37,825 bases of DNA from an uncultured Lentisphaeria bacterium (GTDB lineage Bacteria > Verrucomicrobiota > Lentisphaeria > Victivallales > Victivallaceae): contig CAIKZE010000388.1 in the NCBI GenBank assembly GCA_903831825.1, positions 1 to 37,825 of the forward strand, given 5' to 3'. Every line of letters begins with the position of its first letter. Positions within the stretch are counted from its first letter, which is position 1. Below, in pieces: positions 4,940-37,825 of this stretch. The notes under the pieces are model-generated. The model did not search any database and was not told where the DNA came from. It saw only the letters and a list, made by a program, of their open reading frames with translations. The translations under genes were made by a program, and so were the position numbers.

Positions 4940-7294
4940 ATGGCCTTTACTCAAATCGTATCATTCGAGACCGTGAGCGATGAAGCAGTCAGCTACGGAA
5001 CCCAGGACATCAACAATGGCGGCATTGCCGACAACGGCAGCGTTAGCATTTGCGGATCCCAGGCTGTCAACAGCGGCGGCATGGCGGATTACACAATCGT
5101 TAATTATTTAGGAGAACAGGATGTTTACTCCGGCGGCGTGGCGAACAATACCATCATCAATGACGGTTATCAGGAAGTCCTTTCCGGCGGCATAGTGAAC
5201 GACACCCGGGTCAATCCCGGCGGAAACATGTATGTGTCTTCAGGCGGAATCGTGTCCGGCGCGCTGACGATTGCCGGCGGGCATGTGACGATAGCGAACA
5301 GTGATAATATGCATACTAAGGCGATGGGATTCCTGCTGGCCGATGCCAAAGTCAATGATGCGCTTTTGACAATCCAATCCGGAGTGGTCGGCGACATCAG
5401 CCAAGTCACATTTACCCTGGACGTAAACAACACCGCAACCGGCACTTATATTCTTGGTACCGGCGCCGACATGACCAGCATGAACAACGCGGTGTTTACG
5501 GTGAAGGACAGCGGACAGAGCGTCGATGTAAAAGTCGGCTCCAGTTATACTTTCGCCGACGGCGATAAACTGTCGCTTAGTCTGACCGATGCCGCGACCG
5601 ACCAGTTGACTGCGGCATTTACCGCTAAAGGAGGCGTTCTGGACACGGTGCCGCCGACGGTGCCGACCGGCTTGAAGCAAACGGTCACCGGAAATTCGGT
5701 AGCGTTAGATTGGGCGGACAGCGCCGACAAAAGCCACATCAAACAGTATGATCTCCGGGTGGATAACAACAGCGATTTCAGCAGTCCGGAACATACGGAA
5801 ACCGTTATCCCAAGCCAGGCTGCAGGGAACAATATTCCGGTCGGAACCTATTACTGGGATGTGCGCGCCCAGGACAATGCAGGTAACTGGAGCGATTGGA
5901 GCAAATCATCATCTTTCACTATTACGCCGACGGACACCGGTGCCAATACTTGGAAGATGGCAAAGAATATTGACGAGGGCGTAGATAACTGGGTTGGGTT
6001 CGGCGATCCCGCTGACGTCTACAGGGTGGTCATGGCCAATTCCGGAAGACTGACTCTCGAATTGACCCATTTAAGCGGCAACGCGGATCTGTCGCTGCTG
6101 AGTGCCGCCGGTGCGGTGTTGAAGATTTCCGCTAATCCGGGAACCGCCAACGATGTGATTAACGCCGCGCTGCTGAAAGGAACTTATTATGTCAAAATCG
6201 CGCCGGCCGCCGGTATGACTGATGTTACATATACTTTCGGTAAAGACTTTGACTATGTACCGTCGGACACCGGCGCCAATACCTGGCAGGCGGCAAAGGA
6301 TATCGGCGCGGGCGTGGACAACTGGGTCGGATTCGGCGATCCCGCCGACTACTACAGGCTGACGACGGCTAATGCGGGAACATTAACGCTGAGATTGCTC
6401 AATTTAACCGATGATGCGAACTTGTCGCTGCTGAGTGCCACCGGCGCGGTATTAAAGACTTCCGCAAATCCGGGAACCACCGATGAGGCGATTAGCGCCG
6501 CGCTGCTGGCCGGTACCTATTATGTCAAGGTTGCGCCGGGTACCAGCACAAGCTTCGCCGCTTACACGCTGACCAACTCTGAAATTTATTGCCCGACGGA
6601 CATCGCCGCCAATACCTGGCAGACGGCAAAAGATATTTCCGCCCTCGACAACTGGGTCGGGTTCGGCGACGCCGCGGATGTTTACAGGCTGGTCATGGAC
6701 AGAGCTGGAACTCTGACCCTGGGTATGACCGGATTAAACGCCAATGCGGACTTGTCGCTGCTGAGCGCCGCCGGCGCGGTGTTGAAAACTTCCGCTAACC
6801 CGGGAATGACCGATGAAGCGATCAATAACGTCGCGCTGCTGAAAGGAACTTATTATGTCAAAGTCGCGGCGGTAACCGGGGTGACCGATGCAAGGTACAT
6901 CCTGTCCAGCCAAGTCACTTATTTCCCCGGAGACACCAATGATCAGGCGGGAAATACTACTGCGGCGGCAAAAATTGTTGATGCATTGCTGCCTCCCCAG
7001 AACGGCTGGGTGGGCCTTGGCGACAGCGACGATTACTACCGGTTTAATTTGGCGGCGGCGACACCGGGGACGCTGCGTCTGAGTATGGACGGCGGCAATG
7101 CGGACTTGTCGCTGTATGACGCAAACGGCAGACTGTTGCAGAAATCGGCAAAGACGGGAACATTTGAAGATATGATTACTCGCAACCTTGCCGTCGGAAC
7201 CTATTACGCCAGAGTTAATGCCGTATCCGGCAATAGTATTGATTACACGCTAACGTTCGATAAAAAACCGCTTGCCGGCATGCTGGTAAGCTAA
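4940..7294 (+). CDS. Large repeat protein: strand-loop-strand repeats, FN3-like domain and four PPC-type repeats; likely type I secretion substrate
   Basis: A 784-residue protein without an N-terminal signal peptide. Residues about 20-125 are short repeats of the autotransporter strand-loop-strand kind, with NNGGIADNGSV, VNSGGMADYTIV, YSGGVANNTII and LSGGIVNDTRV spaced about 20 residues apart. Residues about 233-330 form a fibronectin-III-like domain. Four pre-peptidase C-terminal (PPC)-like beta domains start near residues 331, 441, 552 and 663; the first three carry NTW-x-A-K and DNWVGFGD, the fourth a degenerate version (GWVGLGDSDDYY). All four share ADLSLL or ANLSLL-type cores. The start has AAGGAG 6-7 nt upstream. 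The neighbouring ABC exporter and HlyD-type adaptor imply export in one step with a C-terminal signal, to serve as a cell-surface or extracellular adhesin. The gene at the right window edge encodes a relative. Its enzymatic role, if any, is unknown. Confidence 0.8.
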   Translation: MAFTQIVSFETVSDEAVSYGTQDINNGGIADNGSVSICGSQAVNSGGMADYTIVNYLGEQDVYSGGVANNTIINDGYQEVLSGGIVNDTRVNPGGNMYVSSGGIVSGALTIAGGHVTIANSDNMHTKAMGFLLADAKVNDALLTIQSGVVGDISQVTFTLDVNNTATGTYILGTGADMTSMNNAVFTVKDSGQSVDVKVGSSYTFADGDKLSLSLTDAATDQLTAAFTAKGGVLDTVPPTVPTGLKQTVTGNSVALDWADSADKSHIKQYDLRVDNNSDFSSPEHTETVIPSQAAGNNIPVGTYYWDVRAQDNAGNWSDWSKSSSFTITPTDTGANTWKMAKNIDEGVDNWVGFGDPADVYRVVMANSGRLTLELTHLSGNADLSLLSAAGAVLKISANPGTANDVINAALLKGTYYVKIAPAAGMTDVTYTFGKDFDYVPSDTGANTWQAAKDIGAGVDNWVGFGDPADYYRLTTANAGTLTLRLLNLTDDANLSLLSATGAVLKTSANPGTTDEAISAALLAGTYYVKVAPGTSTSFAAYTLTNSEIYCPTDIAANTWQTAKDISALDNWVGFGDAADVYRLVMDRAGTLTLGMTGLNANADLSLLSAAGAVLKTSANPGMTDEAINNVALLKGTYYVKVAAVTGVTDARYILSSQVTYFPGDTNDQAGNTTAAAKIVDALLPPQNGWVGLGDSDDYYRFNLAAATPGTLRLSMDGGNADLSLYDANGRLLQKSAKTGTFEDMITRNLAVGTYYARVNAVSGNSIDYTLTFDKKPLAGMLVS

Positions 7295-7454
7295 GGAGCT
7301 GTTCAAAAATAACCTTTACATCTTTGCGATTCTCCCGAATGCCTTTGTGTTTGCCGGTTCGTTACATACCTGAAGATATGCGTCTCTCCGGCAATTCACA
7401 AAATCACTTCGGGATGTTTCGCGAAACTTGTCAAGTTTATTTCTTTACAGCTCC
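7295..7454. repeat. 160-bp fold-back (MITE-like) element
   Basis: The ends are inverted copies: 26 bp match at 21 positions, starting GGAGCTGT on the left (7295-7302) and ending ACAGCTCC on the right (7447-7454). The arms keep matching inward in blocks (CCCGAA, TTTGTG, TTGCCGG), so nearly the whole element can fold into one hairpin. TAA lies on both sides (7292-7294 and 7455-7457) and could be a target duplication; the left TAA is the stop codon of the repeat-protein gene. It separates that gene from the 97-residue protein gene. It may be a non-autonomous mobile element, or a structure that lowers read-through between a highly expressed substrate and its exporter. Confidence 0.65.
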
Positions 7455-7527
7455 TAAGTGGAAACTTATGTTGCAATGCGGTATTATTAAAAAGAAGCGC
7501 AACTAACGAAGAAAATGGAGAATTGGA

Positions 7528-7821
7528 ATGAAGAAGCGGATTTACGCGGATGGAGTTGAAGCCATAAGCTTCAGTGAAGGAATGGTAAGGATTGACTTGT
7601 ACAACGCCTTGCATGGCAAAAATAATGAACCGGGCAAAGCGCCGGAACGCGAAGTGACTGACGAATTGATAATGACTTCGCAGGGCTTTCTCCGTTCCTA
7701 CTCCGCAATGGAGAAACTGGTGAAACAACTGATGGACGCCGGCGTGGTTCAACGGAACGAGGCGGCGGAAAATAAACAGGCGGCAGCGGCTCCGGAAAAT
7801 TCGTCTCCAAATTTTAAATAG
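7528..7821 (+). CDS. Small conserved-looking protein of the type I secretion locus (97 residues)
   Basis: A 97-residue protein with GGAG 8 nt before the ATG. Residues 1-30 look like two or three beta strands (YADGVEAISFSEGMVRIDLY), residues 45-75 like a strand and a long helix (VTDELIMTSQGFLRSYSAME), and the tail is Ala/Asn/Pro rich and probably disordered. The layout of strands followed by a helix after a hydrophobic strand is reminiscent of DUF3467-type small proteins, but I cannot confirm this. There is no signal peptide. It lies between the secreted repeat protein and the exporter, 24 nt before the latter, so it may be a cytoplasmic chaperone, a targeting factor, or a modulator of the exporter. 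Function is unknown. Confidence 0.75.
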   Translation: MKKRIYADGVEAISFSEGMVRIDLYNALHGKNNEPGKAPEREVTDELIMTSQGFLRSYSAMEKLVKQLMDAGVVQRNEAAENKQAAAAPENSSPNFK

Positions 7822-7845
7822 TAATACGATCCAGGCGGCTTTTTA

Positions 7846-10413
7846 ATGGAAAAATCTTTGGAGAAACAGCTCTTTACCGGCATCGAATGCTTGCGCGCGG
7901 TGGCGGTGAATTTCTGTCGGGACGTAAACTTTGCGGCGTTATTGACCCAGCAACTGTTCGAACTGTGCCGGACTTCGGAACAGGACGGGATTCTGGAGTT
8001 GGCGCGGACATTGGAGTTGGCGCCTGAACTTTGCGTGGAACCTGACTTCCCCGCCGCAGTCGGCGATTACCGCGGACCATTGTTGATTTTGCTCAAAAAC
8101 GACAACTGGGTATGCGTCATCAATACCGACGAACTTAAATCCAATGCGGAAGACGTGCTGATCTGCGACCCGCTGGCAACCGGGAAGAAATTCATTTCTG
8201 TTCAATATGACAAGCTCACCGGCAATTACGGCGGGAAAGTTGTAAAATTCAAGCATCTGCTCACTGGCCAGGAGTCGGGCAACACCGCGTTATTCTGTTT
8301 GACCGCGATCGGACGGCATCACGGACTGGATATTAATGTCCGCCGGTTACTGCACGAATATGCCGTTGACACCAAAGAAATCCCGGAACCGCTCATTTTC
8401 AAGATTGCGCGCGATTACGGCATGAAGACCAGGAAGCAGCATCTGGACTGGGAGCGGCTGGCCTTGCTGGGAGAAGCGTTTCCGGTCATTGCCGAAAAAC
8501 AGGACGGCAGTTACGTCATCATCTGCGGCTGGAGAAAAATCAATGACGACGAACAGATTGCAGTAATAGACCCGTCAATGCCGATGAAGCCGGGAGAAAG
8601 TTTTATTTTCTGGAATCATCAGAAATATACCGAAATGTGCAATGGCAAAATCCTGCTGATCAAGCGGATTTATTCATTGCTGGATGAAAAGCAGCCGTTT
8701 GGAATGATGTGGTTTGTTCCTGAGTTTATCAAGTTGAAAGGCATTTTCGGGCAGATTGCGCTGGCGGTAGTATTAATGAGCGGAGTGGCGCTGATTACGC
8801 CGCTGTTCTTCCAGATTGTGGTTGACAAAGTGCTGGTGCACGCTAGTTATACCACGCTTAATGTGCTTGGCATCGGCATCATCATCGCGCTCTGCTTCAA
8901 TGCATTCATTGAATTTCTCCGCGGTTATCTGCTGCTTCACGCGACCAATAAAATTGACATCAGGACGGCAACCAAAACGTTTGAGCATCTGATGCAGCTT
9001 CCGGTCAATTTTTACGAAACGATTTCAGCCGGGGTCCTGATCAAGCACATGCAGCAGACGGAAAAAATTCGCGGGTTCCTTTCCGGGAACTTGTTTTTTA
9101 CGATTCTCGAACTGGGCTCGCTGGTGGTATTTGTTCCCTTTCTGCTGATTTACAGTGTCAAGCTGACAATTATCGTGCTGGGATTTTCCATGCTGATGGC
9201 GGGAATCATCGCTTTGATGATCAAGCCGTTCCAGACCAGGTTGCAGGAATTGTATCAGGCGGAAGGCAAACGGCAGGGAATGCTGGTCGAGGCGATTCAC
9301 GGCATCAAAACCATAAAATCACTGGCCCTGGAGCCGGTGCAGAAGAAGAAATGGAATGATTCGACGGCATACGCAATCACCCGCTATTTCAGAGTCGGCA
9401 AAATTTCATTGACGGCCAGGAGCATCAGCCAGTTGCTTGAAGCGTTGATGTCCGTGACAATCATCTGGGTCGGCGCGCTCAGCGTATTCGAGAAAGAAAT
9501 CACGGTTGGCTCGCTGATTGCGTTTCAAATGCTTTCAGGCAGGGTTACCGGGCCGCTGGTCAAACTGATTTCGCTGATTCACGAATATCAGCAGACCGCG
9601 TTGTCGGTTAAAATGCTGGGCCAGGTGATGAATACCCCTGCTGAGCCGGGCGGCGGCGGAGTGCAAAACCCGTTGCGCGGCAATATCAGTTTTGACAATG
9701 TTTCGTTCCAGTACACGCCGGACGGCAGGCAGGTGATAAAAGAACTGAGCTGTGAATTCCCGTCCGGCAGCGTTATCGGGATTGTCGGCCGCAGCGGTTC
9801 CGGCAAAACCACGCTGACCAAACTGCTCCAGAGCCTGTATCAGATACAGTCAGGAATCATCCGTTTCGACGGCATTGATCTCAAGGAAATCAACAAGGCG
9901 CATCTGCGCAGCAGTATCGGCGTGGTGTTGCAGGATAATTTCTTCTTCCACGGCACGGTCAGGGAAAATATTTCCATCACCAAACGCAACGCGACGCTGG
10001 AGGAGATAATTTATGCGGCAAAGCTGGCCGGGGCGGAAGAGTTTATTCAGGAAATGCCCCGCGGTTATGATTCAATACTGGAAGAGAACGCATCCAACCT
10101 TTCCGGCGGGCAGCGGCAGCGGCTGGCAATTGCCAGGGCATTGCTGACCAATCCCACGATTCTGGTTTTCGATGAGGCAACCAGCGCATTAGACCCGGAA
10201 AGCGAAAATGTCATTCAGAACAATTTAGCGGCGATGGCGCGGGGCAGAACTTTGATTATTGTTTCCCACCGCCTTTCAATTATTCACGGCGCGGACAAAA
10301 TTCTGGTACTCGACAACGGGGTCAAAACCGCCTTCGCGCCTCATAGTGAACTGGTCAAGCAGCCGGGAATTTATCAGGAATTCTGGCAGCAGCAGATGGG
10401 GAGATTCTTATGA
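7846..10413 (+). CDS. Type I secretion ABC exporter with two degenerate C39-like N-terminal domains
   Basis: An 855-residue fused ABC exporter, HlyB/LapB-like but about 140 residues longer. Residues about 145-280 form a C39 peptidase-like domain in which Thr147 replaces the catalytic Cys and GSYVIICG lacks the His, so it should bind rather than cut its substrate, as in HlyB. Residues about 1-140 look like a second, more divergent copy, ending in the same beta pattern (LLILLKNDNWVCVI, then VLICDPLATGKKF). A six-helix membrane domain spans about 300-560. The nucleotide-binding domain follows from 615: Walker A GRSGSGKT at 648-655 (Lys654), signature LSGGQRQR near 751, Walker B ILVFDEATSALD near 772 and H-loop SHRLS near 806. 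ATP hydrolysis would drive export of the upstream repeat protein. No TolC-like outer-membrane gene is present in the window. Confidence 0.9.
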   Translation: MEKSLEKQLFTGIECLRAVAVNFCRDVNFAALLTQQLFELCRTSEQDGILELARTLELAPELCVEPDFPAAVGDYRGPLLILLKNDNWVCVINTDELKSNAEDVLICDPLATGKKFISVQYDKLTGNYGGKVVKFKHLLTGQESGNTALFCLTAIGRHHGLDINVRRLLHEYAVDTKEIPEPLIFKIARDYGMKTRKQHLDWERLALLGEAFPVIAEKQDGSYVIICGWRKINDDEQIAVIDPSMPMKPGESFIFWNHQKYTEMCNGKILLIKRIYSLLDEKQPFGMMWFVPEFIKLKGIFGQIALAVVLMSGVALITPLFFQIVVDKVLVHASYTTLNVLGIGIIIALCFNAFIEFLRGYLLLHATNKIDIRTATKTFEHLMQLPVNFYETISAGVLIKHMQQTEKIRGFLSGNLFFTILELGSLVVFVPFLLIYSVKLTIIVLGFSMLMAGIIALMIKPFQTRLQELYQAEGKRQGMLVEAIHGIKTIKSLALEPVQKKKWNDSTAYAITRYFRVGKISLTARSISQLLEALMSVTIIWVGALSVFEKEITVGSLIAFQMLSGRVTGPLVKLISLIHEYQQTALSVKMLGQVMNTPAEPGGGGVQNPLRGNISFDNVSFQYTPDGRQVIKELSCEFPSGSVIGIVGRSGSGKTTLTKLLQSLYQIQSGIIRFDGIDLKEINKAHLRSSIGVVLQDNFFFHGTVRENISITKRNATLEEIIYAAKLAGAEEFIQEMPRGYDSILEENASNLSGGQRQRLAIARALLTNPTILVFDEATSALDPESENVIQNNLAAMARGRTLIIVSHRLSIIHGADKILVLDNGVKTAFAPHSELVKQPGIYQEFWQQQMGRFL

Positions 10414-11756
10414 GCGGAAAAGTTACAAAACCGGAAAAACCGTTAATTCCGGAATCGCTGGATTATCAGCCTGACGCGATTGAGCTGGAACATTCCAGTC
10501 TGCCGTGGCTGGGGCGGTACGGTATTTTATCCGTGCTGGTGTTTTTCGTCCTTGCAATAATTTGGGCGTCGCTCTGCAAGGTGGACAAGATCGTGATCGC
10601 CAATGGAAAATTAATTGCGTCCACCAATAATATTGTGCTGAAACCGCTGGAACGCGCCGTTATCAAAAAAGTTAATGTTGAAGTAGGCCAGACTGTCCGC
10701 AAAGATCAGACCTTGATTACTTTTGACCAGACTTTTAATCAGGCGGACGTTGACCGGCTGAAAGAACAGTTGAGAAGCCTGACGGCGCAGTCCATCCGGA
10801 TGCGGGCGGAATTCAACGAAAAAGATTATTTGAAAATGATAGACCCCAATAATATGGATGAAGTCTGGCAGGCGTCAATCTTCGCCAAACGAAATAAATT
10901 CTACATCGAAAAGATGGCGTATTTCGCCGAGAATATCAAGCGTCTGAATGCAATGCAGGACTCCACCCGGCAGAGCGTGGCCAAACAGCAGGAACGGCTG
11001 GAAGCTTTGCTGCGCATTGAAAAAATGCTGGAAGGATTGCAGGAACGGAAGACCGTCTCCCTAAAACAACTGCTGGAAACCCAGATATCGCGACTGCAAA
11101 TGGAAAGCGAAACCGATGCCTTGAGAAATAAATTGAATGAGTCAGACCACGAAATCCTGTCCGAAAAGGCCGGCCTGAATTCGTTTGTCGCGGAATGGTA
11201 CAAGAGCATCACGGAGGAGTTGGTCAAAACCGAGCGTGAATTGAATACCGTCAAGAAAGATCTCGAAAAAGCCGAGCGGCTTAATTCTTTGATTTTCATG
11301 CGTTCTCCGGCGGATGCGATCGTCCTGGACATCGCACAGTTTTCAGAAGGTTCCGCCGTGCGCGAAGCGGAACCGCTGGTGACGCTGGTGCCGACGGATG
11401 CAAAAATCGAAGCGGAAGTCAATATCGAACCCAAGGATATCGGGCAGGTCAAAATAAATGATGACGTCAGAATTAAACTGGACTCATTTCAATTTCAAAT
11501 ACATGGCACGCTGGCCGGCAAAGTCCGCATGATTTCCGAAGATACCTTTCAGGAACAGGGGATGGCCGGAGCGAAACAAAATTTCTACCGCGCCAGAATC
11601 ATTATCTCCGGGAAACTGGACAATGTGCCAAAAAACTTCCGGCTGATTCCCGGAATGCAGGTTACCGCGGAAATAAAAGTCGGCAAACGGCGCATCATCA
11701 CTTACTTGCTGCACCCTCTGGTTAAAGCCCTCGACGAAAGCATTCGCGAACCGTAA
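10410..11756 (+). CDS. HlyD-family membrane fusion protein of the type I secretion system
   Basis: A 448-residue periplasmic adaptor. A short cytoplasmic N-terminus is followed by one membrane helix (GILSVLVFFVLAIIWASL, about residues 35-52), a biotinyl-lipoyl-like half (VIKKVNVEVGQTVRKDQTLI), a long coiled coil (about 105-300) and the second lipoyl half plus beta-barrel (IFMRSPADAIVLDI, then VTLVPTDAKIEAEVNIE). It links the ABC exporter to an outer-membrane channel. Its ATG overlaps the exporter stop codon in an ATGA junction, so translation is coupled. It is the last gene of the locus; the 400 bp downstream contains only a repeat-bounded pseudogene and no obvious strong terminator. Confidence 0.92.
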   Translation: MSGKVTKPEKPLIPESLDYQPDAIELEHSSLPWLGRYGILSVLVFFVLAIIWASLCKVDKIVIANGKLIASTNNIVLKPLERAVIKKVNVEVGQTVRKDQTLITFDQTFNQADVDRLKEQLRSLTAQSIRMRAEFNEKDYLKMIDPNNMDEVWQASIFAKRNKFYIEKMAYFAENIKRLNAMQDSTRQSVAKQQERLEALLRIEKMLEGLQERKTVSLKQLLETQISRLQMESETDALRNKLNESDHEILSEKAGLNSFVAEWYKSITEELVKTERELNTVKKDLEKAERLNSLIFMRSPADAIVLDIAQFSEGSAVREAEPLVTLVPTDAKIEAEVNIEPKDIGQVKINDDVRIKLDSFQFQIHGTLAGKVRMISEDTFQEQGMAGAKQNFYRARIIISGKLDNVPKNFRLIPGMQVTAEIKVGKRRIITYLLHPLVKALDESIREP

Positions 11757-11835
11757 AAACTAAGTCTCTTTTCCTGAATTCGCAGGTCGTTTTCTGTATA
11801 AATAACCGTATCCGTTTTTAGCGGTCAAATAATTT

Positions 11836-12096
11836 GAATATCCAATATCCAACAAGGAATATCCAACATTCAAGGTAAAAAATACCGTTATCGCTCCTGC
11901 TTTTTCCCGCCAGTATCTATGCTCCTGAATAAAATTGCAATTAGCTCGCCGGTTTCCTTAAGCAGCAGGGAAAGCCTGGTTGAAAGTTGAATCAATATTT
12001 ATGAAACGGTCTTGCAGATCGAAATCTCGATGATGGTCTTTTGTATTCAGCCTTTCCTTCATCAGTTGGATATTCCTTGTTGGATATTGGATATTC
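11836..12096. repeat. Perfect 32-bp inverted repeats bounding a gene remnant
   Basis: Left arm 11836-11867 and right arm 12065-12096 are exact reverse complements over 32 bp. Each arm is itself built from repeated GAATATCC, CAATATCC and AACAAGGAATATCC words. They enclose about 197 bp holding a decayed four-helix-bundle protein gene. I recall the same words, which translate as NIQYPTRNIQ, from many environmental and PVC genomes near such genes; that is memory, not a search. The structure suggests a cassette that moves or is copied as a unit. Confidence 0.75.
11888..12062 (-). pseudogene. Remnant of a four-helix-bundle (S23/IVP-like, TIGR02436-type) protein gene
   Basis: Read from ATG 12062, the first codons give MKERLNTKDHHRDFDLQDRF, resembling the start of four-helix-bundle proteins of the 23S rRNA intervening-sequence family. 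In another frame further on, LSLLLKETGELIAILFRSID resembles their C-terminal helix, ending at TAA 11890-11888. The intact family is about 115-125 residues, so roughly half the gene is missing and the two ends are joined out of frame. It is dead as a protein gene. The assignment rests on remembered family motifs (DLQDRLI near the start, ELIAIF near the end) and should be tested by profile search. Confidence 0.6.
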
Positions 12097-12162
12097 GTTT
12101 CTTTACCCATAAATTCTGGTGAAGACCCAAAACTAATGCTTAATGCGGTGGCTTCCTGCATT

Positions 12163-14385: not shown

Positions 14386-14506
14386 ACGGAATATTGATTT
14401 TCTGCGTCATTTCATAAAAAAGTGATTTTTTTTAAGGATGCCTATTGACTTCCGATGGTACAAGCATGTAACATATATTGCACGTGGATGGTACAAGCAT
14501 GTAACA
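14386..14506 (+). promoter_or_regulatory. Module copy 1 promoter with two identical operators
   Basis: This stretch is a near copy of 18097-18216. TTGACT (14445-14450) and TAACAT (14469-14474) form a promoter with an 18-bp spacer. Two identical 19-bp boxes, ATGGTACAAGCATGTAACA, lie at 14455-14473 and 14488-14506, 33 bp apart or about three helical turns. The first overlaps the -10 region. Each has TACA-N4-TGTA half-sites, typical of a dimeric GntR or LacI-type repressor. In copy 2 the same boxes precede the intact GntR/LacI gene, making that protein the probable ligand here too. Confidence 0.75.
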
Positions 14507-14631
14507 GAGGAACAGGCTGGATTGCAACGTGGCGGCGGCTGGAAAATGAATTAAGGCAGGGCTGGCAGATATTCAGCGCCCGGATTATCGAACGCGAGTC
14601 CACTATGCAACAATCGGCATTAGTAACAACC
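14507..14631 (+). pseudogene. 3' remnant of a GntR/LacI-type regulator gene (module copy 1)
   Basis: The sequence matches the last 125 or so bp of the regulator gene at 18252-19352. [20 protein letters not shown] corresponds to [20 protein letters not shown] at its C-terminus. The homology starts immediately after the second operator, so about 1 kb of the gene, including its start and DNA-binding domain, has been deleted while operators and tail remain. A one-base gap near the junction and loss of the stop codon leave the tail in frame with the pseudopilin that follows. Not functional as a regulator. Confidence 0.8.
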
Positions 14632-14652
14632 TTTAAAGAAAGGAAAGATATT

Positions 14653-15333
14653 ATGAAAAGACAGAAGGCAGTTTTCACACTCATTGAACTCCTGATAGTG
14701 ATTGCAATCATAGCAATTCTCGCTGCGCTGCTCCTGCCGGCGCTGAATCAGGCGCGCAACAAATCAAAAAGCATTAAATGTGTCAGCAATATCAAACAGC
14801 TTAGTTTTACCTTTAGCAATTATTCTATGGATTTTAACAACTTTCAGTGTCCAACCTATATCCAGCCAAGTTTAAAATATTGGACTGCCTTTCTCTGGGA
14901 TGCCGGTTACAAAGAATTCAACCCGGCCTTCTGCTGGAGCGCAAGAAAAATACAATATTACCACTGCCCGTCTGAACTTACTTATGCTTCAACAGATCCC
15001 CGCGCCGGCGGCGGAACTCATCCGGCGGATTATGCACTAAACTACTACACTCATCCTATGGTTACAGCAACAGGAGGATGGACGCGCGCAGGTTCCCTGG
15101 CGAATCCGTCCCGTCGTCTTGGCATCATGGATTCATGGTTCGGGCGTATGAGTGCATATTATCTTTATAATGACATAGCCAATTCGGGGGCAAATTTTAA
15201 TTTGCGCCATAACAATATGTTCAATGTTAGCTTTGAGGATGGGCATGCCGGGTCATTGAAATGTAGCGAGGTACCGATAAGCAATAATGCGGGGTACGCT
15301 TACACATGGGCAAATGCTCCGTATCCATGGTGA
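14653..15333 (+). CDS. H-X9-DG pseudopilin (prepilin-type N-terminal cleavage/methylation domain), module copy 1
   Basis: A 226-residue protein. [19 protein letters not shown] is a type IV pilin-like leader and hydrophobic helix; processing would fall before FTLIELL, but Val instead of Gly is at -1. [15 protein letters not shown] near the C-terminus fits the H-X9-DG signature of the pseudopilin-like family abundant in Planctomycetes and Lentisphaerota. AAGGA lies about 10 nt before ATG 14653. The frame is open upstream to 14455 only because the regulator remnant happens to be in frame, and the paralogue at 19414 begins with the same MKRQKAVF. It precedes a secreted glycan-active protein by 67 bp, so it may help form a pseudopilus or surface scaffold for that enzyme; this is inference. 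Confidence 0.85.
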
Positions 15334-18251: not shown

Positions 18252-19352
18252 ATGGGACCGGTTAAAAGATTGAAACTGTGTGAAGCGATTAAGTCGGATA
18301 TTGCGTCCGGCCTTTATTTGCCCGGCGGGTTCCTGCCGAATGAGTTTGACTTGGCGGATAAATATGGTTATTCCCGGAATACAGTGCGTCCGGCGCTGGC
18401 GACGCTCGAAAATGAGAAGATTATCGAATTGCTGAAAGGCAGAGGACGCCGGGTATGTCCGGTTAATGTCAAAGCCCCGGTTCCGTTGACTTTCCTGTTG
18501 CCGTGCGCCGATTTTCTCAGCGACACTAGGGAATACCCATACGCGTTGCATCTGCGTCAGATGCTGAAAGGGGTATCGCAAATTGCTTTCGAACACAATT
18601 GCCGGGTGCAGACGGTGCCGGTTTCACCGACAAACTATCAGCATAACATTGATTTGAAGCAATTGGACTTCGTTGATTCAAACAGCAAATTGCTGGTGCA
18701 TAATTACTGGTATGCTGATTTATTTCCGCTGTTCAAGGAACGCGGCTGCAAGATAGCTTTTGTCGAAACTCAAGCCCGCTATTTCAAGCTTTATGCCGAT
18801 TACCTCAAAAATTGGTTTGTCTTAACCATAGATCGTGAAAACGCGGCGGAAGCGGCGGTAAAATTTCTGGCGGAACGCGGTTGCCGGCGGATTGCGTTGG
18901 CGAATGGCTTTATTGAAGAAAAAGACCATCCGATAATGTCCGGTTATAAATCAGGACTGGCCAAATGCGGGCTCCGGTATGCCGCCTGGATAGACACGCG
19001 GGCAATCACCGATGAAATTATCGGCAGGTTCATCGCCGACTTCTATAAGAAAAATAAATTTGACGCGTTGCTGCTGGACCCCCAACTGGTTTTCAGGCTG
19101 CGGACGCAGCATTCGTTGAATTATTATCTCGGCTTGCCGTCAAGCGTGAGAATCATGGCAGATAACGAAATGAGCTATAACCAACAGGCGTTCCCGTCGC
19201 TTTCAAGTCTGGTTTTTCCGTATGAGGAAATAGGCCGGATTGCGGCGCGGCTGCTGCTGGAAGATGAATTCAGGCCGGGTCGGCAGATATTCAGCGCTCA
19301 GATTATCGAACGCGAGTCCACTATGCAACAATCAGCTTTAGTAACAGCCTAA
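18252..19352 (+). CDS. GntR-type winged-helix regulator with LacI-like ligand-binding domain
   Basis: A 366-residue regulator. Residues about 5-75 form a GntR winged helix ([46 protein letters not shown] wing). Residues about 80-345 follow the periplasmic-binding-protein fold used by LacI proteins ([43 protein letters not shown]), so it probably binds a sugar released by the enzymes of its own operon. Few bases separate it from the pseudopilin gene downstream (stop 19352, first ATG 19369). The two operator pairs, its own at 18165-18216 and the orphan one at 14455-14506, suggest that it controls both modules. It has no obvious Shine-Dalgarno; GTAATGCC precedes the ATG. Confidence 0.9.
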
Positions 19353-19439
19353 AAAAAGGAAAGACATTATGAAAAGACAGAAGGCAGTTTTCGCAAAAGA
19401 AAGGAAAGACATTATGAAAAGACAGAAGGCAGTTTTCAC
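19350..19439 (+). repeat. 45-bp tandem duplication carrying ribosome-binding site and start codon
   Basis: Two adjacent 45-bp copies (about 19350-19394 and 19395-19439) each contain AAGGAAAGACATTATG followed by codons for KRQKAVF. The duplication is in frame, so the pseudopilin has two complete initiation signals at 19369 and 19414. Initiation at the first would add 15 residues before the leader. Copy 1 of the module has only one unit. Confidence 0.9.
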
Positions 19440-20148
19440 ACTCATTGAACTCCTGATCGTGATCGCCATCATCGCAATTTTGGCAGCCATGCTGCTGCCG
19501 GCGCTGCAAAAGGCCCGTTCAACCGCCAAAAAGAGTTTCTGCTCAAACAATATGAAGCAGATCTGCCTGGCCCACAGCATGTACATCACAGACTTTAACC
19601 ACGTTGTCACTTGGAGTCAGTCTACCAAAAGCGGCCAAAAAACACAAAACGGAGCATGGACGCAAGTTCTCGCGCCATATGTCAACAACAATGCGCTTCT
19701 CTGGGTCTGCCCGTCAATCCCGGTATTAGATCTGCAACTAGCACTACTTAAATCCTGCCATGACCCATATGCGGCTGCCTGGACAAGCGGCATGCACACG
19801 GACCAAACTATCGGGATCAATGGCTTCTTCTTTGACTATACGGATCAAACCCAACAGTTAACCAGCAATAATTTGACTATCATCAAGACCCCGTCTAAAC
19901 TGATCTATAGCGGAGACAATGCGGACTATCTGGGCTTCTGCGTTCCGGGAAATAGTAACGACGGCAGATATGTTACCTACAATGGATTGTGGCCGACTGC
20001 CGGCGCGTATTTCAATCCATGCCACGATAATAACTGCAATCTCGGCTACCTGGACGGTCATGTTGAATCAGTCCCCGCAATGGTTCTATATCCCCGTGTG
20101 ACGAAAGTGGATGTGTCAAACCTTTATTTGTATATGCTGCAGAAATAA
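19414..20148 (+). CDS. H-X9-DG pseudopilin, module copy 2
   Basis: A 244-residue protein from ATG 19414, with [19 protein letters not shown] as prepilin-like leader and helix, then [19 protein letters not shown], typical of the family. [13 protein letters not shown] near the C-terminus fits H-X9-DG. The start at 19369 is in frame and equally well supplied with a ribosome-binding site, but would give a leader of about 22 residues. The start at 19414 matches the paralogue at 14653. The body differs strongly from that paralogue after the first 40 residues, so each module keeps its own specialised head domain. Cotranscribed with the regulator upstream and the 1142-residue enzyme 30 bp downstream. 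Confidence 0.85.
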
Positions 20149-37220: not shown

Positions 37221-37825
37221 TCAACCGGCCAGCAGGCCTTTCTTCAGCAGGTCGTTGCTGCCGGCGGTCAGTGTCGCATCGGAACTGCCGGAAAGCGGAC
37301 TGGAACTGCTGAACAATTGCAAACTGCCGGTCTTGAATGCTGATGCATTAAGGTTATTGCCGGAGAGAGCCGCCGTAAGATAATTCTCGGTACTGGTCAG
37401 CGTATAGCCAGCGGCAGTTACCTTTGCCCCCGGCGCGACTTTGACAAAATAGTTTCCGGCCTGCAAGGTTTGCGTGATGGACTCATCGGCAGTTCCGGTT
37501 GCGGTAGTCTTCAACACTTTACCGCTGGAGTTCAACAACGACAAGTTCGCGCCTCCGCTCAACCCGGTCAGCCCCAGCGCCAGGGTTCCGGCACCGGTCA
37601 TGGTCAGCGCGTAAACGTCGGCGGAATCGCCGAACCCGACCCAGTTGTCGAGGTGGGTAATATCGGTTGCCATCTGCCAGGTGTTTCCGGCAGTGTCCAC
37701 CGGGAAATAATTCGTGGTATTGGTCAGCGTGTAGCCGGCGGCAGTTACCTTTGCGCCTGGCGCGACTTTGACAAAATAGTTTCCGGCCAGCAAGTTTTGC
37801 GTGATGGATTCAGCAGCGGTTCCGG
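37221..37825 (-). CDS. PPC-repeat protein, C-terminal part (5' end beyond window); probable second type I secretion substrate
   Basis: About 200 residues are seen, running in from the right edge; the frame stays open through 37825, so the TTG at 37793 is an internal Leu, not a start. Two copies of a YFVKVAPGAKVTAAGYTLT unit and one full PPC-like domain (NTWQMATDITHLDNWVGFGD, ANLSLLNSSGKVLKT) are visible, very close in pattern to the repeats of the 784-residue protein at 4940. The C-terminus (SDATLTAGSNDLLKKGLLAG) differs from that protein's. It is likely exported by the same kind of system, but its own exporter is not seen. Ends at TGA 37223-37221. Confidence 0.8.
   Translation of the reverse strand, partial: GTAAESITQNLLAGNYFVKVAPGAKVTAAGYTLTNTTNYFPVDTAGNTWQMATDITHLDNWVGFGDSADVYALTMTGAGTLALGLTGLSGGANLSLLNSSGKVLKTTATGTADESITQTLQAGNYFVKVAPGAKVTAAGYTLTSTENYLTAALSGNNLNASAFKTGSLQLFSSSSPLSGSSDATLTAGSNDLLKKGLLAG

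Follow-up and report, generated by a model that had tools for sequence, protein, structure and literature searches.

Known systems with four-helix-bundle genes or heptad repeats

Among the closest described systems are the 23S intervening sequences of Leptospira and Coxiella, in which an S23/four-helix-bundle (FHB) ORF lies between complementary, stem-forming termini, with repeated heptamers directly before the start codon and a Shine-Dalgarno region within or close to the stem (PMC4990558). The Coxiella intervening sequence combines a terminal stem of 28 bp with an S23p ORF. Tandem GACAGAT heptamers, whose number varies between strains, precede the S23p start codon, and the Shine-Dalgarno region is removed by RNase III (PMC4990558). 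The authors of that study recorded the ideas of a transposon remnant and of a mobility gene as unproved, and they cite Ralph and McClelland as having proposed a mobility role for the intervening-sequence ORF (PMC4990558).

Heptamers have also been described as TAACTGA repeats in Beggiatoaceae, Cyanobacteria and Bacteroidetes, where they stand in intergenic arrays before ORFs, interspersed with other heptamers (PMC4679880). Unlike the arms described below, these are direct repeats with almost no inverted sets, and the terms 'four helix', 'S23' and 'intervening' are absent from that paper (PMC4679880). A link between the TAACTGA heptamers and the FHB arms is possible.

A decayed FHB gene inside a transposon-like element

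The window (the whole stretch of DNA analysed, 37,825 nucleotides) belongs to a genome of 5.9 Mb in 506 contigs, here called G000, with G001 and G002 as its congeners; the organism is probably a PVC bacterium akin to Lentisphaerota. It contains two inner arms of 32 nt at 11836-11867 (forward strand) and 12065-12096 (reverse strand), the right arm being a perfect reverse complement of the left (100% complementarity) with 197 nt between them. Both the coordinates and the sequence of these arms had been given correctly in an earlier note on this DNA. The left arm is built of 7-nt repeats (AATATCC AATATCC AACAAGG AATATCC). Measured on 56 homologous arms, base agreement is 64, 64 and 73% at lags of 7, 14 and 21 nt, and about 25% at other lags. 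When the interval 11836-12096 was folded as RNA and compared with shuffled versions, z was -7.8 on the forward and -7.6 on the reverse strand; a search of Rfam gave no match at E 0.1.

Between the arms, at 11868-12064 on the reverse strand, is the remnant of an FHB (S23/IVP) gene, its C-terminal part (11868-11996) joined to its N-terminal part (11997-12064) at the junction GTTGAATCAATATTTATG. Since this interior aligns to the intact FHB gene of a sibling copy on another contig (L012, contig C311) minus about 218 bp of the gene middle, it is a decayed FHB gene. This agrees with the earlier suggestion of a dead, internally deleted four-helix-bundle gene, the sibling being a member of PF05635/TIGR02436. 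No listed ORF of at least 80 aa covers the remnant, which offers no reading frame for PF05635 and encodes no such protein; stop codons interrupted it in the frame that was translated. The right arm contains a Shine-Dalgarno-like word, AAGGA, just upstream of the former ATG.

The sibling on C311 is full length and carries an intact FHB ORF on its minus strand. This ORF is a clear family member, matching PF05635 (E 1.2e-17, 64.5 bits, curated cut-off 33.8) and TIGR02436, 'four helix bundle protein' (E 2.6e-27, 95.2 bits, cut-off 24), with a solved homologue, 2RLD. The region of its right arm, Shine-Dalgarno-like word and ATG reads CAAGGAATATCCAACTGATGAAGG on the minus strand. The dN/dS ratio, which could be calculated for three pairs, was 0.05-0.11, and the FHB protein is under purifying selection. 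Domain profile searches detected no nuclease family in it. We know of no established function for S23/IVP four-helix-bundle genes, which are widespread among uncultured bacteria and present in 100 of the 145 genomes sampled in this phylum.

Homology between copies extends beyond the inner arms to fixed outer ends. The earlier note had taken 11836-12096 as the repeated unit; a comparison of sibling boundaries instead places the mobile unit at 11764-12128, with ISL3-like ends and an 8-bp target duplication, AAAACTAA. The left outer terminal repeat, GTCTCTTTTCCTGAATTCGCAGGTC, spans 11764-11788 on the forward strand, as defined by an alignment of 19 two-ended copies, and its family form is G(T/C)CTCTTCTCCTGAATTCGCGGGTC, also written G(T/C)CTCTTCTCCTGAATTCGCGGGTCG. 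The right outer repeat, at 12105-12128 on the reverse strand, reads GGGTCTTCACCAGAATTTATGGGT as its reverse complement and was recognised from sibling copies and an insertion-sequence end; right ends across the family, likewise reverse complemented, read GGGTCTTCACTAGAATTTATGGGT. The two target duplications, at 11756-11763 and 12129-12136, are identical, and the TAA stop codon of the HlyD-like gene upstream ends on the first A of the left one. The element sits between this gene and an AraC-type gene, not in a 23S rRNA gene.

Inspection of siblings by eye revealed further 8-bp AT-rich duplications (CAAAAATA, ATATTAAA, AAATAAAA, TTAATTTT, AAAAAGAG, TTTTACGG and TTTAGTTT), a 7-of-8 match at L069, and several copies, such as L092 and L095, with no duplication readable by eye. 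In our assessment, the segment 11764-12128 is very probably a deletion derivative of a non-autonomous transposon with ISL3-like ends, carrying an older armed FHB unit that looks like a relative of the 23S intervening sequences.

Copies in this genome and their movement

A DNA search found about 40 dispersed copies of the window element in G000. The 31-nt arm core occurs 85 times in this genome at no more than three mismatches, and a reversed control pattern has no occurrences. For five copies, the two flanks were joined and used to search G001 and G002. For the C311 copy, an exact empty site, CTTTAAAATAAAACAGGG, is present in both congeners: they read contiguous CCTTTAAAATAAAACAGGGCC where G000 carries the element between two copies of AAATAAAA. 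G002 lacks the C6 copy as well, but a small deletion blurs the junction there. Empty sites, which the earlier note had proposed to look for, therefore exist, as found for the C311 sibling in two congeners and not for the window locus. The window locus has no clean empty site in the congeners because its two flanks sit on different congener contigs, its flanking genes being conserved there but not adjacent.

Movement also continued after the FHB gene was lost. The copy on C429 (L010) shares its FHB deletion junction with the window copy. A third copy, on C503 (L011), aligns with a matching gap, but the exact junction word was not found there, so only the window and C429 are counted as sharing the deletion. 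The same deletion at two sites indicates that an FHB-less copy moved again, and hence that movement on the outer ends does not require FHB in cis. Judged from these junctions, dead copies still move, driven in trans.

The arms themselves are not uniformly preserved. Among 13 copies with two arms and two outer ends, four have perfectly matching arms and the mean arm-to-arm mismatch is 3.7%, figures that lean towards intact arms as copies were partly found through them. The identity of the arms around a dead gene, which had been taken to imply recent insertion or selection or conversion of the repeats, is real, but it does not require special upkeep: sibling arms are mostly imperfect, and the family is transposon-driven. 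As the arm words in G000 ride on the transposon-type element, most of their copies no longer enclose an intact FHB gene.

As a mark of all FHB genes in G000, the words of the window arms had to be rejected, being absent from L001-L008 save for a single short word in L002. Different inverted arrays flank five other FHB genes of G000 (L002, L003, L005, L007 and L008). The earlier impression that the repeat words are familiar near such genes thus holds as one version of a wider rule, while the 7-nt repeat sequence itself differs between loci.

In anatomy, the family resembles miniature inverted-repeat elements (MITEs) and mobile insertion cassettes (MICs) with ISL3-like or IS231/IS4-like ends, whose terminal repeats match an insertion sequence, which move in trans and which carry a cargo gene without a transposase. 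Duplications of 8 bp (in this genome and in Cloacimonadota) or 11 bp (L167 and L197) are shared as well. The C311 copy, with a cargo gene and no transposase between insertion-sequence ends, can be called a MIC. It differs from these elements in that its cargo, the armed FHB unit, also occurs without outer ends in other lineages.

Two variations on the arms were seen in passing. In many siblings (L090, L062, L069, L093, L094, L110, L112, L113, L115, L116 and L118), an arm heptad is swapped for a small palindrome, for example GTCCCGCAGCCGCGGGATCCCGCTGGAGCGGGA, or for a CACAAAG-type palindrome, so that palindromes are nested. Separate solo arm words of the TTCGTTATTGGATATTC type occur in G000 without outer ends (C55:14491, C77:590, C257:2524 and C399:196), some of them with a weakly matching inverted partner at a distance of about 60 nt.

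A probable partner insertion sequence

A pattern search for element ends found that about ten contig ends in G000 carry GCC followed by TCTTCACCAGAATTCGTGGG or GGG followed by TCTTCACCAGAATTTGTGGG (contigs C10, C87, C188, C221, C292, C357, C413, C419, C441 and C456), with the overall form GCC/GGG-TCTTCACCAGAATTYGTGGG. These ends are of the same type as the outer ends of the window element, the right end reading GGG followed by TCTTCACCAGAATTTGTGGG. They likely represent a multicopy insertion sequence broken by short-read assembly, and this is the likely partner of the window element.

Read inward from one such end, the sequence translates to GLNRKINLTIRKSFGFRTIKIAKICLYHQ, which gave a weak 20-residue match to the C-terminus of DDE_Tnp_ISL3 (PF01610; E 0.11). 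Together with the 8-bp AT-rich duplications and the GG-TCTT start of the outer ends, which we take to be an ISL3-family trait, this match is the basis for assignment to ISL3, and the transposase is likely of this family. No ISL3 transposase is assembled in G000, G001 or G002, the interior of the insertion sequence being unassembled in G000. An intact ISL3 gene in G032 (L272) has no end matching the one pattern searched in its 2.3-kb locus. As expected of an ISL3-type MITE, the element has ends that match an insertion sequence of the same genome (a match of the ends only), an 8-bp AT-rich duplication and, in the C311 sibling, an empty site.

Armed FHB cassettes in other genera and phyla

In relatives, homology covers essentially the stretch from arm to arm, and outer ends of the window type are absent. 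For example, an FHB cassette in G032 (contig C5) has perfect 35-nt arms, and one in G057 (contig C58) has 33-nt arms of 97% identity, with the FHB start at the arm edge. The genes flanking the G057 cassette are syntenic in G060 and G052, where the FHB cassette is missing. Because the gap is filled there by other, ORF-less palindromes, this is not a clean empty site for an arm-only cassette. At the intergenic site of L240 (G060:C91) and L241 (G052:C26), which are orthologous to the L122 cassette, the three related species carry different ORF-less palindromes, as if this were a place of repeated landing or replacement.

To gauge breadth, 80 named loci were taken from one scan of GTDB genomes in which the nearest relatives were chosen, covering Lentisphaerae, Verrucomicrobia, Kiritimatiellae, Planctomycetes, Chlamydiota, Cloacimonadota, Marinimicrobia, Desulfobacterota, Nitrospirota and others. 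Each locus was given an arm score, the best ungapped inverted match between its 300-nt flanks. A score of at least 15 was reached by 58 of 75 testable FHB loci (median 21) compared with 2 of 133 other ORFs on the same contigs (median 8); the 75 loci are not fully independent, since L157 and L159 have nearly 5 kb in common. When flanks were swapped between different loci, 22% reached this score. At a score of at least 20, the contrast was 51% within a locus against 8% in swaps.

As the first scan had taken nearest relatives, a second sample was drawn by family score across the phylum. In this less biased sample, 13 of 29 FHB genes reached a score of at least 15, compared with none of 24 controls. 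Inverted matches at this score outnumbered direct ones in both samples (58 versus 19 among the 75 loci, and 13 versus 2 phylum-wide). The earlier proposal of a class of cassettes carrying FHB genes between inverted repeats is borne out by both comparisons. DNA homology between cassettes of different genomes, including genomes of different phyla, often ends at or just outside the arms. The phylum-wide arms also have a 7-nt period, with units such as AGTGGCT, AGGAGTC, GGAGAAC and GAATCGT. Since the units differ by locus and the period persists, what stays constant is not the words but the period together with the inverted orientation.

Some lineages have paired this unit with other outer ends. 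By eye, the Cloacimonadota loci L140 and L144 have different ends with 8-bp duplications (AAATAAAG and ATACAGAA), and those in Brocadia and Desulfobacterales have ends CATAAGCGCTAACTTAA, presumably IS231/IS4-like, with 11-bp duplications (GGTATCGGCAG at L167 and GTGGGTACCCT at L197). As a separate observation, FHB cassettes in L139-L158 (CSMAG bins and others) have 76-94% DNA identity across bins named as different phyla, which may reflect recent transfer or mis-binning.

In the literature searched, FHB genes flanked by inverted heptad arms were not described at non-ribosomal sites, a weak negative given that most subscription papers lay outside the search. FHB genes between mirror-image 7-nt arrays, found across many phyla and laid out like the rRNA insertions, are thus an apparently undescribed pattern. 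The likeness to the 23S intervening sequences is one of anatomy: here too, stem-forming terminal inverted repeats surround an S23p ORF, which is intact in siblings and relatives. As the Coxiella intervening sequence shares this layout, the FHB cassettes look like its extra-ribosomal relatives, by anatomy and protein family, rather than intervening sequences proper. Unlike the latter, they lie between ordinary genes, several per genome, and in some lineages sit inside transposon ends flanked by target duplications.

Origin of the arms and competing explanations

In our preferred explanation, the window element is a MITE, or 'mobile insertion cassette', that landed on the stop codon of the gene upstream and created the 8-bp duplication. 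It would have been moved by a transposase acting in trans, the likeliest source being the multicopy insertion sequence with ends at contig breaks. Its cargo would be an older, multi-phylum unit in which inverted arms made of 7-nt repeats enclose the FHB (S23/IVP) gene. RNA transcribed through the cassette may fold on the arms and so mask the ribosome-binding site inside the arm, and RNase III may cut the folded RNA, as in the 23S intervening sequences, making insertions tolerable. A point against this explanation is that a Shine-Dalgarno word accompanies an ATG in 37 of 62 armed loci and lies inside the arm in only 19. The FHB protein may in turn act on the arms or their RNA, and slippage with template switching at the DNA level may create and homogenise the arms.

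Several other readings can be weighed against this. The arms could serve the FHB gene as a regulatory or insulating hairpin (a hidden ribosome-binding site or a terminator), selected as RNA and with no role in mobility. The predicted stem is strong, and the upstream arm contains a Shine-Dalgarno word in 19 loci. Selection for RNA pairing predicts a bias towards G-U pairs on the sense strand, and arm mismatches show no such excess (27 versus 25), leaving RNA folding unsupported by this test. Arms also surround deleted genes and occur at many gene-less places, and a hairpin has no need of 7-nt periodicity, all of which makes this reading unlikely. We infer that DNA-level slippage and template switching at near-palindromes fits the matching of the arms better than selection for RNA pairing.

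It is also quite improbable that the arms are plain terminal repeats of the cassette itself, with FHB as the mobility protein that moves it. Cassette homology does often end at the arms, FHB is under purifying selection, and such a role is what Ralph and McClelland proposed, as cited in PMC4990558. Nevertheless, arm-only cassettes viewed by eye have no target duplication, the arms vary between loci by more than one recogniser of terminal repeats usually accepts, FHB contains no detected nuclease family, and FHB-less copies still moved on their outer ends. A comparison with REP/REPIN elements, short extragenic palindromes in many copies, is suggested by the many solo arm words in G000 and by the ORF-less palindromes that occupy the G057-cassette site in G060 and G052; FHB genes would then lie among intergenic palindromes by chance or as a RAYT-like partner. 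Chance is excluded by the control genes, and the arms are periodic 7-nt arrays without fixed sequence that form inverted pairs around one protein family, so we regard this reading as quite improbable. Finally, the window element could be a young, ordinary MITE with a captured piece of FHB, and the wider pattern a by-product of low-complexity flanks. MITE anatomy is evident, and matches in direct orientation occur in 19 of 75 loci, but intact FHB genes with long, often near-perfect arms lie outside this MITE in many phyla, and arms match within a locus far more often than in swaps (51% versus 8% at a score of at least 20), making this reading very improbable.

Wider implications and GxxExxY genes

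Beyond the preferred reading of an armed FHB unit carried by an ISL3-like-ended transposon, a bolder proposal is that FHB genes, and perhaps the nuclease-like GxxExxY genes, mark widespread selfish cassettes that have no fixed terminus and are defined by inverted periodic arrays, the period being 7 nt in the case of FHB and about 9 nt in that of GxxExxY. The small protein would take part in repeat-writing, and the 23S intervening sequences would be members that landed in rRNA. We offer this tentatively, as a possibility somewhat short of even likelihood. As the repeat unit changes by locus yet matches across arms, a dedicated repeat-writing or template-switching process would be needed.

If FHB genes do belong to mobile cassettes recognisable by their architecture, the nature and spread of 23S intervening sequences can be tested at non-ribosomal sites, where copy numbers, empty sites and the matching of the arms would serve as read-outs. 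It would also point to where many unexplained heptamer repeats, and the repetitive peptides annotated beside such genes, may come from.

Among GxxExxY (PF13366) genes of the order, 29 were scored, with a median arm score of 16 and 52% at 15 or more. Their arms have a looser period of 8-10 nt, and inverted matches did not significantly exceed direct ones (15 versus 6 of 27, p 0.14). A weaker, similar arm pattern in these genes is a lead, not a result. Separately, the GxxExxY genes of L242-L271 (PF13366, PD-(D/E)XK) were often seen between inverted arms of a roughly 9-nt type, such as CCACAGAGA, ACAGGATAA and CACAAAGGC.

Other features of the window

The window also contains a type I secretion-like cluster at 4940-11756, comprising a 784-aa repeat protein, an ABC transporter and the HlyD-like gene, and a fragment of a similar repeat protein is found at the other end of the window (37221-37793). 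Two prepilin-like genes, at 14455-15333 and 19300-20148, have a common upstream stretch, and a regulator gene ends in its second copy.
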